Assembly: GCF_003667315.2 (NCBI RefSeq) | Contig: NZ_RCTZ02000012.1 | Location: 62,001 to 126,000, forward strand | Direction of reading: 5' to 3' | Origin: Tropicibacter alexandrii | Lineage (GTDB): Bacteria; Pseudomonadota; Alphaproteobacteria; Rhodobacterales; Rhodobacteraceae | DNA length: 64,000 nucleotides | In this document: piece after piece, positions 48,306-52,390 of the stretch | Layout of the letters: each line of letters begins with the position of its first letter | Position numbering within the stretch: the stretch's first letter is position 1 | Notes under the pieces: generated by a model | Seen by the model: only the letters and a program-made list of their open reading frames with translations | Databases searched by the model: none | What the model was told of the DNA's origin: nothing | Made by a program: the position numbers and the translations under genes

Positions 48306-49088
48306 TCAGGCGTCGAGCGTGATCCAGACGGGGACATGGTCGCTGGGTTTCTCGCGGGCGCGGATGTCCTTGTCGATCTGGCAGTCGGTCATCAGGTCGG
48401 CGGCCTGCGGGGTCAGCAGGAAATGGTCGATGCGGATGCCGTTGTTCCTTTGCCATGCGCCGGCCTGGTAATCCCAGAAGCTGTAATGGCCGGGGCCTTG
48501 GGTGCGCGCGCGGAAGGCCTCGGTGAAACCTAGATTGACGATCCGGCGGAAGGCCGCGCGCGATTCCGGCCGGAACAGGGCGTCCTCGGTCCATTGTTCA
48601 GGCTTGGCGGCGTCCTCGGCCTGCGGGATGATGTTGTAGTCGCCAGCCATCAGCGCCGGCATTTCCTCGGCCAGAAGGTCTCGGGCGCGGGCTTCGAGGC
48701 GCGCCATCCAGGCCAACTTGTAATCGTATTTCGGCCCCGGCACCGGATTGCCGTTGGGCAGGTAGAGGCCACAGAGCCGGATGGCGTGCTTTGGCCCCAC
48801 CACTGTCGCCTCGATCCAGCGGGCCTGATCGTCATCAGCGTCACCGGGCAGGCCTCTTGTCACATCTTCGAGGGGCAGTTTGGACAGGATGGCGACACCG
48901 TTGAAGCTCTTCTGCCCATGGGTCGCCACATTATAGCCGCGCTCTGCGAAAGGTTCGTGGGGGAAACCCTCGTCGACGGACTTTATTTCTTGGAGGATCG
49001 CCACGTCTGGCTGGGCCTCGTCCAGCCAGTCCGTCAACGCGCCGAGGCGCGCCTTGATGCCGTTGATGTTGAACGTCGCGATTTTCAT
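48306..49088 (-). CDS. xthA: Exodeoxyribonuclease III
   Basis: The protein has 260 residues. The endonuclease/exonuclease/phosphatase motifs are in place: MKIATFNINGIKARL, LQEIKSVDEGFP with the metal-binding Glu near 34, GLYLPNGNP, MAGDYNI and the terminal SDHVPVWI with the catalytic histidine. It is an AP endonuclease in base excision repair. The ATG at 49088 has SD GGAGG at 5 bases; the longer frame upstream enters the AT-rich control region and is rejected. Confidence 0.94.
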   Translation of the reverse strand: MKIATFNINGIKARLGALTDWLDEAQPDVAILQEIKSVDEGFPHEPFAERGYNVATHGQKSFNGVAILSKLPLEDVTRGLPGDADDDQARWIEATVVGPKHAIRLCGLYLPNGNPVPGPKYDYKLAWMARLEARARDLLAEEMPALMAGDYNIIPQAEDAAKPEQWTEDALFRPESRAAFRRIVNLGFTEAFRARTQGPGHYSFWDYQAGAWQRNNGIRIDHFLLTPQAADLMTDCQIDKDIRAREKPSDHVPVWITLDA

Positions 49089-49469
49089 GGGCGCCTCCGG
49101 TTTGTCCAACCTCAAAGCGGTTGGCGGCGGCGGGGTCAAGAGTGACGCGCGGTTTTGCCCTGCGAGGGCGGCCGGACGCGGGCCGGTTTGCACGGTCGAA
49201 CGAATCGAAGCTGCATTCGATTCGGCGGGTTTGCTTGTTTGCAAATCCGGGGCCGGCTGCAAACAATTATCTTATCCACAAGAAATGGTTGCATGTGGAC
49301 AGGCCGCATTGTCGCGACACGGGAAACACATGCCGCAGCTGCAGCCTGTGGAAAAACTGTTTATTAAACAACCTTAACAAGAATTAACTTTTATGCAAAC
49401 AATTTTCTCGAGCAATCTGACCTGGCAATCAACGCAGTCACTCATCAACACACACATGGAGTTACGCCA
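49089..49469. promoter_or_regulatory. AT-rich control region with DnaA box, TTAA half-sites and inverted repeats
   Basis: No gene is seen in these 381 bases between divergent xthA and the tandem-repeat gene. From 49235 onward the composition is AT-rich and packed with motifs. An inverted repeat TTGTTTGCA/TGCAAACAA occupies 49235-49243 and 49258-49266, with a third copy at 49394-49402. A perfect DnaA box TTATCCACA lies at 49272-49280, with near matches on the other strand at 49294-49302 and 49347-49355. TTAAA, TTAAC and TTAAC half-sites start at 49364, 49374 and 49384, exactly 10 bases apart. The half-sites resemble those of CtrA, though canonical CtrA spacing is 11. This points to cell-cycle or replication-linked control of the downstream cassette. 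Confidence 0.55.
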
Positions 49470-50063
49470 ATGTCCGCTCAGATTAAGCACAGCACCCGTG
49501 AACAATTCGTTGCCCGCGGTGAAACCAGCGCCCTGACCGGCGAGTCCGTCGAGATGTTCACCTCCTGGTCGGGTCCGGTTTCGGGCGAGATGGACGGCGG
49601 CGAGGCGGTCGAAGCCTTCACCAGCTGGTCGGGTCCGGTGACCGGCGACGCCAACACCGGCGGTGCGGTCGAGGCCTTCACCTCGTGGTCCGGTCCGGCG
49701 ACCGGCGACGCGACCGACGGCAGCAACGTCGAGGCCTTCACCTCGTGGTCCGGCCCGGCGACCGGCGACGCGACCGACGGCAGCAATGTCGAGGCCTTCA
49801 CCTCGTGGTCCGGCCCGGTGACCGGTGACGCGACCGACGGCAGCAGCGTCGAGGCGTTCACCTCGTGGTCCGGCCCGGCAACCGGCGACGCGACCGACGG
49901 CAGCAACGTCGAGGCCTTCACCTCGTGGTCCGGCCCGACCACCGGTGACGCGACCGACGGCAGCAATGTCGAAGCCTTCACTTCCTGGTCCGGTCCGACC
50001 ACCGGCAAGACCGATGACGGTGCCGCTGTCGAGGCCTTCACCAGCTGGTCCGTCAAGGCCTGA
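49470..50063 (+). CDS. Tandem 20-residue repeat protein (possible multi-core peptide precursor)
   Basis: The protein has 197 residues: a 26-residue leader (MSAQIKHSTREQFVARGETS and six more), eight 20-residue repeats, and a truncated ninth that ends the protein as VEAFTSWSVKA. The consensus unit is VEAFTSWSGP followed by xTGDATDGSN. Repeats contain no Cys and, apart from the degenerate eighth, no Lys; they are rich in Thr, Ser, Gly and Asp with one Trp and one Phe each. There is no signal peptide or membrane helix. ATG 49470 has TGGAG 8 bases upstream. Leader plus identical cassettes, followed by an unassigned protein and an exporter, is the layout of a multi-core RiPP precursor; a structural or surface repeat protein is the main alternative. 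I do not recognise the family. Confidence 0.85.
   Translation: MSAQIKHSTREQFVARGETSALTGESVEMFTSWSGPVSGEMDGGEAVEAFTSWSGPVTGDANTGGAVEAFTSWSGPATGDATDGSNVEAFTSWSGPATGDATDGSNVEAFTSWSGPVTGDATDGSSVEAFTSWSGPATGDATDGSNVEAFTSWSGPTTGDATDGSNVEAFTSWSGPTTGKTDDGAAVEAFTSWSVKA
49548..50060 (+). repeat. 60-bp tandem repeat array, 8.5 units
   Basis: Units start at 49548, 49608, 49668, 49728, 49788, 49848, 49908 and 49968, with a partial unit at 50028. Units three to seven are almost identical at the DNA level, while the first two and the last full unit diverge, which indicates internal duplication or gene conversion. The period is exactly 60 bases, so copy-number change keeps the reading frame. Confidence 0.95.
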
Positions 50064-50123
50064 TCCAAGCGAACCCGGGCGGGGCGCGATGCGCTTCCCC
50101 AGAGATAACAGGAGGTTACACTC

Positions 50124-51185
50124 ATGAGTAATGTTATCCAGCTGACCGTCCCGTCCCGGATTGCGCCACTGGAAGCGCGGATCACCGCGCTTCTGGGCAG
50201 CTTCGCCACCAAGCGGCGCATCAGCGATGATGTGTTCTGGCTCAAGGAAAACGCGGAGCTTTTGAACATCCTGGAATGCACGGGCCATCACGTCCCCCAT
50301 CAGGCGCTGGCCGTGCATGCCGGGTTCTATGAGAACGCCCTGAAAAAGTTGCAGTTCTTCCCGCAATACTACCGGTTCCTGCTGTCGCTGGTGCTGGATC
50401 TCGAAGAGTTGGGCATGCCCGGCGACATGGCAGAGCGCATGTGCGTCTTTGCCGCCCGCGAAGGGCTGCCGCAAGCGGAACTGTCGGATTTGCAGCGGGC
50501 CGAGGCACGTCGCCTTCTGACGCGAAGGGGCGTCAGGTCTGACACGGATTGTGGTCTGGATGACCGGCTTCGTGACTTTGCCGGTCGTACCGCGACGTTC
50601 AAACTGCCGAACAAGAAGGCAGCATACGAGTTAACCCATATCGTGTACTATCTGTCGGAATACGGACGGCGCGATCCCCGGATCGGCGCGGAGGCGATGC
50701 AGAGCCTGCATTTCGCCGGGATTACCGCATTCCTCGACCAGAACGCCGATTTGCTCGCCGAAATCTGCATCGCGATGATCTATGCGGGGGACACACCCCC
50801 GACCGCCTGGACCGACTGGCTGGCGCAGGCCCGCGCCGGGTTCATGGTCGAGACCGGGCCGGGCGTGCCGGTGCAGGACGACTACCACGAATGGTTCGTG
50901 TGCAACTGGCATGCGGCGGTCGTGGGCGAAGAGACATTCCGCAAGCCCGCCACCGATGACCGGATGCGCTTTGAGCGCGGGCCGCGCAACGGGCACGCGC
51001 TGCGCGAGATCAGCCAAGCCATGCTGGCGCTGGACGAGGCGCGGTCGGGCGACTGGCAGCGCATGCGCATCCGGATGGAACCGGACCTGTCCCCCGAGGC
51101 GCGCGACGTGCTGGCGATTGCCGCACAATCCAGCGCCTTGTTCGAAGAGTATTTCGCGGGCTTTGCCCGGGCAGGGCTGGCATGA
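50124..51185 (+). CDS. Unassigned 353-aa protein, candidate partner of the repeat protein
   Basis: The ATG at 50124 follows a near-perfect SD (CAGGAGGT) and lies 60 bases after the repeat gene with no terminator between, so the two are probably cotranscribed. The protein is soluble, mostly helical, and rich in His, Tyr and Trp in clusters: ECTGHHVPHQALAVHAGFY (about 51-69), AAYELTHIVYYLSEYGRRDP (about 172-191) and DDYHEWFVCNWHAAVV (about 252-267). The ELTH-x-x-YYLSEYG element reminds me of uncharacterised proteins found in natural-product loci, but I cannot name the family with certainty. No ATP-grasp, radical-SAM, P-loop or flavin motif is visible. The His clusters could bind metal. It overlaps the exporter gene by 4 bases. 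Confidence 0.8.
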   Translation: MSNVIQLTVPSRIAPLEARITALLGSFATKRRISDDVFWLKENAELLNILECTGHHVPHQALAVHAGFYENALKKLQFFPQYYRFLLSLVLDLEELGMPGDMAERMCVFAAREGLPQAELSDLQRAEARRLLTRRGVRSDTDCGLDDRLRDFAGRTATFKLPNKKAAYELTHIVYYLSEYGRRDPRIGAEAMQSLHFAGITAFLDQNADLLAEICIAMIYAGDTPPTAWTDWLAQARAGFMVETGPGVPVQDDYHEWFVCNWHAAVVGEETFRKPATDDRMRFERGPRNGHALREISQAMLALDEARSGDWQRMRIRMEPDLSPEARDVLAIAAQSSALFEEYFAGFARAGLA

Positions 51186-52066
51186 TCCGGGGCGCGACAT
51201 TGGGGGCGGCGCTGGTCGTCCTCTATACCGGCATGATGGCCGCCGCAGACGGCATCACCAAGATGATCGCTGGCGGCTACGAGGCTCCTCAACTGTTCGT
51301 CCTGTCGTCGCTGATCGTTGTCGGGCTGACGGTTTGCTATGGCCGTGTCTCCGGGGAGGCATCGTTTCGCCTGCGCTCCAAGCGCGCGATGGCGGTGCGG
51401 TCGGGGCTGACGGTGGTCGCCTCCATCGCGTTTTTCATGGCGTTTCGGCTTCTGCCCTTTGCGGATGTGTTCCTGTTCATTGGGCTGATCCCGCTAATCG
51501 CGGCGGCCTTGTCCGGGCCGGTTCTGGGCGAGGCGCCGCGCCCGCTGGCTTGGGCGGCTTTGTCGCTGGGCGGTGCGGGGATGGTGTTCCTGATGCCGGG
51601 CGGGCTTTCGGGCATGCAGGCGGGCCATGTCTGGGCGCTGATCGCTGCGGTGACCGGCACTGGCTCGATGCTGGCGGCACGGGTGATCGCCAAGGTCGAA
51701 CGCGCGCCGCTGGCACAGGTGTTCTGGCCGAACATTGCGCTTCTGGCGGTGATGGGGGTCTGGCTGCCCTTCGTGTGGCAACCGATGGACCTGACGGATC
51801 TGGGCTGGGTCGCCGCCTATGCGATGGCCATCTTCGCGGCGCGCTATGTCGTGGCCGAGGCCTTGCGCCTGTTGCCCGCCTACGTGGCCACGCCGCTGAT
51901 GAACCTGCAATTCGTCTGGATGGTAGCCATCGGCCTGTTTGCCTTTGGCGAGGTCCCGACCATCGGCACCGTCTTGGGGGTGACGCTGGTCATCGTGTCG
52001 GGCCTGTGGCTGGTGCTGGACGAACGGCTGGCGCGCAGCCGCGCCGCCGTCCTGCCAGCCGAGTGA
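51182..52066 (+). CDS. EamA/DMT-family transporter
   Basis: The protein has 294 residues with about ten hydrophobic segments in two homologous halves (each an EamA domain), as in RhaT/YdcZ-type drug/metabolite exporters. It is an inner-membrane permease without ATPase. Its ATG lies in the stop of the 353-aa gene (ATGA), so the two are translationally coupled; it is the third gene of the repeat-protein cassette and a plausible exporter for its product. It could also be an unrelated metabolite permease, since this family is broad. It ends directly against convergent erpA with no gap. Confidence 0.85.
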   Translation: MIRGATLGAALVVLYTGMMAAADGITKMIAGGYEAPQLFVLSSLIVVGLTVCYGRVSGEASFRLRSKRAMAVRSGLTVVASIAFFMAFRLLPFADVFLFIGLIPLIAAALSGPVLGEAPRPLAWAALSLGGAGMVFLMPGGLSGMQAGHVWALIAAVTGTGSMLAARVIAKVERAPLAQVFWPNIALLAVMGVWLPFVWQPMDLTDLGWVAAYAMAIFAARYVVAEALRLLPAYVATPLMNLQFVWMVAIGLFAFGEVPTIGTVLGVTLVIVSGLWLVLDERLARSRAAVLPAE

Positions 52067-52390
52067 TCAGATCGAGAACGAGGTGCCGCAGCCGCAACTG
52101 GACGTGGCATTCGGGTTCTCGATGACAAATCGCGCGCCGATCAGCTCATCGGCGAAATCGATCACCGCGCCGGTCAGGAAGGGCAGGGAGACAGGGTCCA
52201 CCACCACCTTTTCGCCCTGCGCCTCAAGCACAAGGTCGTCACCGGCGGGATTGTCGAGCTTGATGTCATACTGAAAACCGGAACAGCCGCCGCCTTCGAC
52301 TGCGACGCGCAGGGCCTTTCCCTGCTCGCCTGCGCCGATTTCGGACAGGCGGGCAAAGGCGCGCTCGGTCACTTGGGGGGGCAGTTGCAT
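52067..52390 (-). CDS. erpA: A-type iron-sulfur cluster carrier (ErpA/IscA family)
   Basis: The protein has 107 residues with the three cluster-binding cysteines at 36 (GGGCSGFQY), 99 and 101 (SSCGCGTSF). It receives Fe-S clusters and delivers them to target enzymes. The gene is convergent with the EamA transporter and divergent from dgt. ErpA and IscA cannot be separated safely from this sequence, so the symbol is tentative. Confidence 0.88.
   Translation of the reverse strand: MQLPPQVTERAFARLSEIGAGEQGKALRVAVEGGGCSGFQYDIKLDNPAGDDLVLEAQGEKVVVDPVSLPFLTGAVIDFADELIGARFVIENPNATSSCGCGTSFSI

Follow-up and report, generated by a model that had tools for sequence, protein, structure and literature searches.

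Do three adjacent genes of Tropicibacter alexandrii, set between housekeeping genes, encode a peptide natural product, and if so, what does the middle gene do to it? All three lie on the forward strand of the window, that is, the whole 64-kb stretch of DNA that was analyzed (64,000 nucleotides). The precursor gene (49470..50063, 197 aa) is followed by the DUF6902 gene (50124..51185, 353 aa), which is preceded by a ribosome-binding site AGGAGG, read by eye at 50110..50115, and encodes a predicted peptide-modifying enzyme. The third gene encodes an accessory EamA/DMT-type transporter (51182..52066, 294 aa; PF00892, 3.7e-10), and its start overlaps the DUF6902 stop codon in an ATGA at 51182-51185, that is, the two are translationally coupled. 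The site of the cassette is bordered by two conserved genes on the reverse strand, xthA (exodeoxyribonuclease III, 48306..49088) on the left and an erpA-type iron-sulphur protein gene (52067..52390) on the right. The three open reading frames, including the ATGA overlap, were confirmed where the initial annotation had placed them. Neither the ORF list, nor the Pfam scan, nor the neighborhoods contain a protease gene within the cassette, and a peptidase may be encoded elsewhere; a cluster-encoded peptidase cleaving off the leader or separating the units is a common, but not universal, feature of RiPP systems. No peptide-type ABC exporter is encoded within the cassette.

The precursor consists of a leader, approximately residues 1-24, and nine FTSWS motifs that start at residues 30, 50 and so on to 190, spaced by exactly 20 aa. 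The eight cassettes counted initially hold as the number of complete 20-aa units, whereas the number of motifs is nine, the last unit being shortened to FTSWSVKA. The period-20 self-identity of this precursor is 72% (z = 34), and the differences between its units fall on the third codon position (181) about twice as often as on the first or the second (94 and 89, respectively), which indicates that the repeat frame is selected as protein. Since the same gene order was found in approximately 100 further loci, a chance origin is excluded. No curated family in Pfam, NCBIfam, or PADLOC matches the precursor above the cut-off; weak matches to BTAD, ChW, and Kil were rejected as chance effects of composition.

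In 82 distinct complete precursors, the number of units varies from 2 to 20 and the unit length from 19 to 21 residues. The unit consensus is G(D/E)x(V/T)(E/Q)xF(T/S/V/C)Sx(S/A), where the x after Ser is Gly, Trp, Ser, Ala, or Cys. The precursor C-terminus coincides exactly with the end of the motif in 57 of the 80 precursors that were scored, and the internal copies run on with AP or GP, which suggests that the product ends with the motif and that a linker or the following unit begins with AP or GP. Units are alike inside one precursor, and precursors are unlike between genera. Mapped on the enzyme tree, the variable position underwent 12 changes, against 31.7 on average after label shuffling, as expected from joint inheritance of the enzyme and its substrate. 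As the variable fourth position of the motif is frequently Gly, it cannot be the residue that is generally epimerized. In RiPP terms, the cassette thus contains a gene-encoded precursor with a leader and cores.

Alternatively, the repeat protein could itself be the product, a structural or surface protein with DUF6902 as its chaperone or partner. Arrays as long as 20 units would suit such a role, and one of the five AlphaFold models of the precursor is β-solenoid-like, if weakly so (mean pLDDT 69.9), yet the remaining four have pLDDT of 33-47, the unit number is not constant, and inspection by eye gave no evident secretion signal. Nor does the repeat match any known structural family; such a match had been named in the initial annotation as evidence against a RiPP system. 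Further, partner families elsewhere follow precursors of 65-80 aa that contain no arrays (loci L109 and L028, described below). We consider this explanation improbable.

The link between the precursor and the enzyme was traced through homologs of the latter. DUF6902 was matched in 307 stretches of GTDB-based contigs (the 80 best were retrieved for analysis), and it is present in 28 of 148 relatives. A tandem-repeat ORF lies directly upstream of the DUF6902 gene in 106 of the 107 loci examined, some of these repeat ORFs being truncated at contig ends or affected by masking (the L043 locus, for instance, includes masked sequence). Thus the expectation that the homologs always stand beside repeat genes is borne out at all loci but one, and homologs regularly occurring without a repeat gene, which would have spoken against it, are not what was found. 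In the reverse direction, a search with the repeat profile matched 25 of the 148 relatives, all 25 of them DUF6902-positive, and yielded no matches in DUF6902-negative genomes; the remaining three DUF6902 genomes, in which the profile found nothing, are the most divergent ones. The precursor therefore co-occurs with a dedicated, putatively modifying enzyme, as is expected of a RiPP. Apparent precursor-enzyme fusions (L014, L038, L067, L093, L102, and L104) proved to be ORF extensions in another frame and were discarded.

The sole exception among the 107, L027, has a divergent DUF6902 gene at the usual chromosomal site and no repeat ORF. Its product also lacks His172, Glu213, and Tyr254-His255, so that both the precursor and conserved polar residues are gone, as expected if the enzyme and the substrate are lost together. 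This copy (L027:1402-2496) is likely repurposed or decaying.

The chromosomal position of the cassette is also conserved. The order of reverse-strand xthA, precursor, DUF6902, optional EamA, reverse-strand erpA, and forward-strand dgt was found almost everywhere among the loci. In DUF6902-negative relatives xthA adjoins erpA, the gap being as short as about 30-70 nt in several of them, and these empty sites contain neither repeats nor EamA, which indicates that the two or three genes are gained or lost as a unit and agrees with the initial description of an inserted cassette. The EamA gene is coupled to the DUF6902 gene in 70 of the 93 assessable loci; the other 23 lack it, and in many of these erpA begins within 80 nt. 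Pairwise distances between EamA proteins correlate with those of DUF6902 at r = 0.78, compared with 0.68 for dgt, 0.59 for xthA, and 0.46 for erpA. EamA proteins are usually small-molecule exporters; here EamA is a partner of the cassette and is not essential to it. Of the proposed trio of precursor, enzyme, and exporter, therefore, the first two stand as one co-inherited unit, whereas the exporter is absent from a part of the loci. The compared sequences show that a ribosomally made precursor is inherited together with its dedicated DUF6902 protein at a constant position between xthA and erpA, and that a coupled EamA gene is often part of the unit.

The cassette is common in the marine Roseobacter group, Pelagimonas and Marivita being examples, and occurs across the Rhodobacteraceae, and one gammaproteobacterial copy was found. 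The latter (L187) combines GAGTELLGCYT-type units with DUF6902 (343 bits) and EamA in the same trio, and was probably acquired by horizontal transfer. No plasmid-borne copies of the cassette were found in PLSDB.

The 353-aa protein had been regarded as unassignable; however, it belongs to the Pfam family DUF6902 (PF21843; 6.5e-160, 532 bits with a cut-off of 27), and it also matches DUF6895 (PF21836; 1.9e-21, 77 bits with a cut-off of 23.8). The two families are homologous in profile-profile comparison (hhalign, 95%, E 2.4e-8), the relationship being distant, with 16-20% identity. No mention of DUF6902 was found in the literature searched. An AlphaFold2 model built with 60 homologs is confident (pLDDT 93.6, pTM 0.92) and nearly all helix. 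Foldseek returned no PDB fold match at E ≤ 0.001 (the top matches, with a best E of 0.13, were helical repeats and a complement-protein chain), and phmmer found no solved sequence relative, so that the predicted fold appears to be without a solved relative in these searches. Polar positions common to DUF6902 and DUF6895 are Tyr168, His172, Asp209, Glu213, and Tyr254-His255, as defined by the family alignment. The absence of the usual RiPP enzyme motifs, noted at the outset, was upheld: there are no graspetide, YcaO, LanM, or radical SAM domains or partner genes. The suggestion that Thr/Ser and acidic residues are crosslinking partners, by graspetide logic, found no support.

A candidate reaction comes from DUF6895, to which a lasso-peptide epimerase has been reported to belong (Shi et al., ACS Catal 2026, doi 10.1021/acscatal.5c08590, as cited in PMC13352647). 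In other proteobacteria, DUF6895 genes are likewise preceded by short precursors that contain Trp or repeats. For instance, the precursors contain ..SLVGPWFVLAGDQT in L109, ..ADWTFVSPNYVYKG.. in L112, and ..NAWAFIVKGKFVFK.. in L028, and L110 has ..GPWYIYKE.. and ..GPWFVLKE... In a gammaproteobacterial locus (L191:184-1872), an M55 D-aminopeptidase is fused to a C-terminal DUF6895-like domain (140 and 35 bits, respectively), and a fusion in L192, from a second gammaproteobacterial genome, resembles it, as judged by eye. These three observations, the homology to a family with a reported epimerase, the D-aminopeptidase fusion, and the pairing of DUF6895 with Trp-containing precursors, make epimerization the most likely chemistry of DUF6902. 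The initial expectation of new chemistry may accordingly be replaced by that of a new enzyme family performing a reaction, epimerization, that is not wholly new.

The short precursors of L109, L110, L112, and L028 have helical-looking leaders (e.g., LVALVKAGIVDLDSFADGLVERLP) and Trp-containing ends and lie directly 5' of the DUF6895 genes; they could represent a wider, undescribed precursor family. In L189 and L190, a hydrophobic segment is N-terminal and DUF6895 occupies the C-terminal half, with no repeat precursor seen nearby; these proteins form a further branch of the family.

The same locus would be produced by a multi-core RiPP in which DUF6902 performs some other reaction, e.g., peptide cleavage, hydrolysis, Asp isomerization, or crosslinking. 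The linkage of precursor and enzyme fits this equally well, the homology to DUF6895 is only distant, the conserved His, Asp, Glu, and His could bind a metal, and there is no structural template for DUF6902. On the other hand, the sole activity reported for the DUF6895 family, as the source is cited in PMC13352647, is epimerization, and the fusion of a DUF6895 domain to a D-aminopeptidase points the same way. We regard a different reaction as a rather unlikely but serious competitor, and think it reasonably probable that the cassette encodes a multi-core RiPP whose units are epimerized by DUF6902.

How the cassette is expressed is suggested by the region upstream of the precursor, on which the initial annotation was silent. 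A perfect DnaA box TTATCCACA is located at 49272-49280, its sole copy in the window, and a second box TGTGGAAAA (that is, TTTTCCACA) at 49347-49355. These are accompanied by GANTC sites at 49202 and 49219 and by two overlapping TTAA-N6-TTAA elements within 49364..49387. The latter are CtrA-like, one base short of the canonical CtrA spacing TTAA-N7-TTAA. In 64 distinct loci, the 300 nt 5' of the precursor contain 83 perfect DnaA boxes (4.3 per kb) versus two in the rest of these loci (0.0025 per kb), and they cluster about 186 and 110 nt 5' of the start codon. None was found in the 140 kb of 20 empty-site loci, at the divergent copies L187, L111, L117, and L118, or at the DUF6895 loci. A search for paired boxes in 101 genomes of the family gave five matches, three of them at cassette promoters by coordinates. 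GANTC (CcrM) sites before the precursor are ninefold enriched and occur in 63 of the 64 loci, an excess that may partly come from the lower GC content of the region (49%). The TTAA-N6-TTAA element is upstream in 17 of the 64 loci, at 1.25 per kb versus 0.0025 per kb elsewhere (approximately 500-fold). All three kinds of element recur across genera and are missing where there is no cassette.

Strict conservation around the boxes is limited to the 9-mer core; DnaA accounts for this better than an unknown operator of greater length would. A replication origin was considered and rejected: the window contains no GC-skew switch and the boxes are missing from the empty sites, and thus they are more likely promoter elements. 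It is therefore probable that DnaA ties expression of the precursor to DNA replication or the cell cycle; control by paired DnaA boxes is, to our knowledge, unusual among peptide natural products. The DnaA-box promoter and the fixed site among housekeeping genes would also suit an intracellular regulator of the neighbors or a selfish element, with no peptide product, but the entire unit is missing elsewhere with the flanks intact, it is also present in the gammaproteobacterium of L187, and the DUF6902 sequence is under strong constraint, all of which leaves this explanation highly improbable.

We propose the following sequence of events for the multi-core RiPP that we favor. The ribosome would make a precursor of a short leader and 2-20 near-identical units, probably at a time tied through DnaA to replication or the cell cycle. 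DUF6902 would act on each unit at G-(D/E)-x-(V/T)-(E/Q)-x-F-(T/S/V)-S-x-(S/A), epimerizing at least one residue through acid/base catalysis, for which His172, Asp209, Glu213, and Tyr254-His255 are candidates. The modified chain would then be cut, probably just past the motif, by proteases encoded outside the cassette, and the small product could be exported by EamA where that transporter is present. The broader proposal is that of a new RiPP class: a DUF6902 epimerase that stands alone and has a new fold would convert tandem cores into D-amino-acid peptides under a replication-timed DnaA (perhaps also CcrM and CtrA) promoter, giving marine roseobacters a signal or defense molecule coupled to the cell cycle. 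This proposal is a tentative one, and we would sooner doubt than accept it in full.

The precursor and DUF6902 make a minimal two-gene system, and the prediction is directly testable, as several of the loci belong to strains that are named and deposited. If DUF6902 is an epimerase, it would act on repeated internal sites as a stand-alone catalyst that seems to use no radical SAM chemistry, and it could be useful for producing peptides with D-residues. The paired DnaA boxes raise the idea that the initiation of replication, or replication stress, is followed by production of the peptide.

No Roseobacter multi-core RiPP of the repeat-DUF6902 type was found in the literature searched. Radical SAM peptide epimerases of the PoyD and YydG type install D-residues in ribosomal peptides; unlike them, the DUF6902 protein has no radical SAM domain by the Pfam scan. 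Graspetide motifs are absent from the cores. Multi-core microviridins (PMC5934393) and other graspetides likewise have several near-identical cores per precursor and one enzyme, whereas the cassette lacks an ATP-grasp ligase and its enzyme is of another family. MslH, the Ca(II)-binding epimerase of the lasso peptide MS-271, uses His/Asp acid/base chemistry and no radical chemistry, and its target is a C-terminal Trp (PMC10406935). Similarly, the polar positions conserved in DUF6902 and DUF6895 comprise two His plus acidic residues, but MslH has a calcineurin-like fold, whereas the DUF6902 model is all-helical and without a PDB match. The lasso-peptide epimerase of DUF6895 is from a homologous family and, going by the title of the report, likewise has a ribosomal precursor peptide as its substrate (Shi et al., ACS Catal 2026, in PMC13352647). 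Lasso B (leader peptidase) and C (macrolactam synthetase) genes are absent from the cassette, which is bordered by xthA and erpA. As far as the cited title describes it, the DUF6895 epimerase tailors a lasso peptide built by other enzymes, whereas DUF6902 stands alone on an array of 2-20 units.
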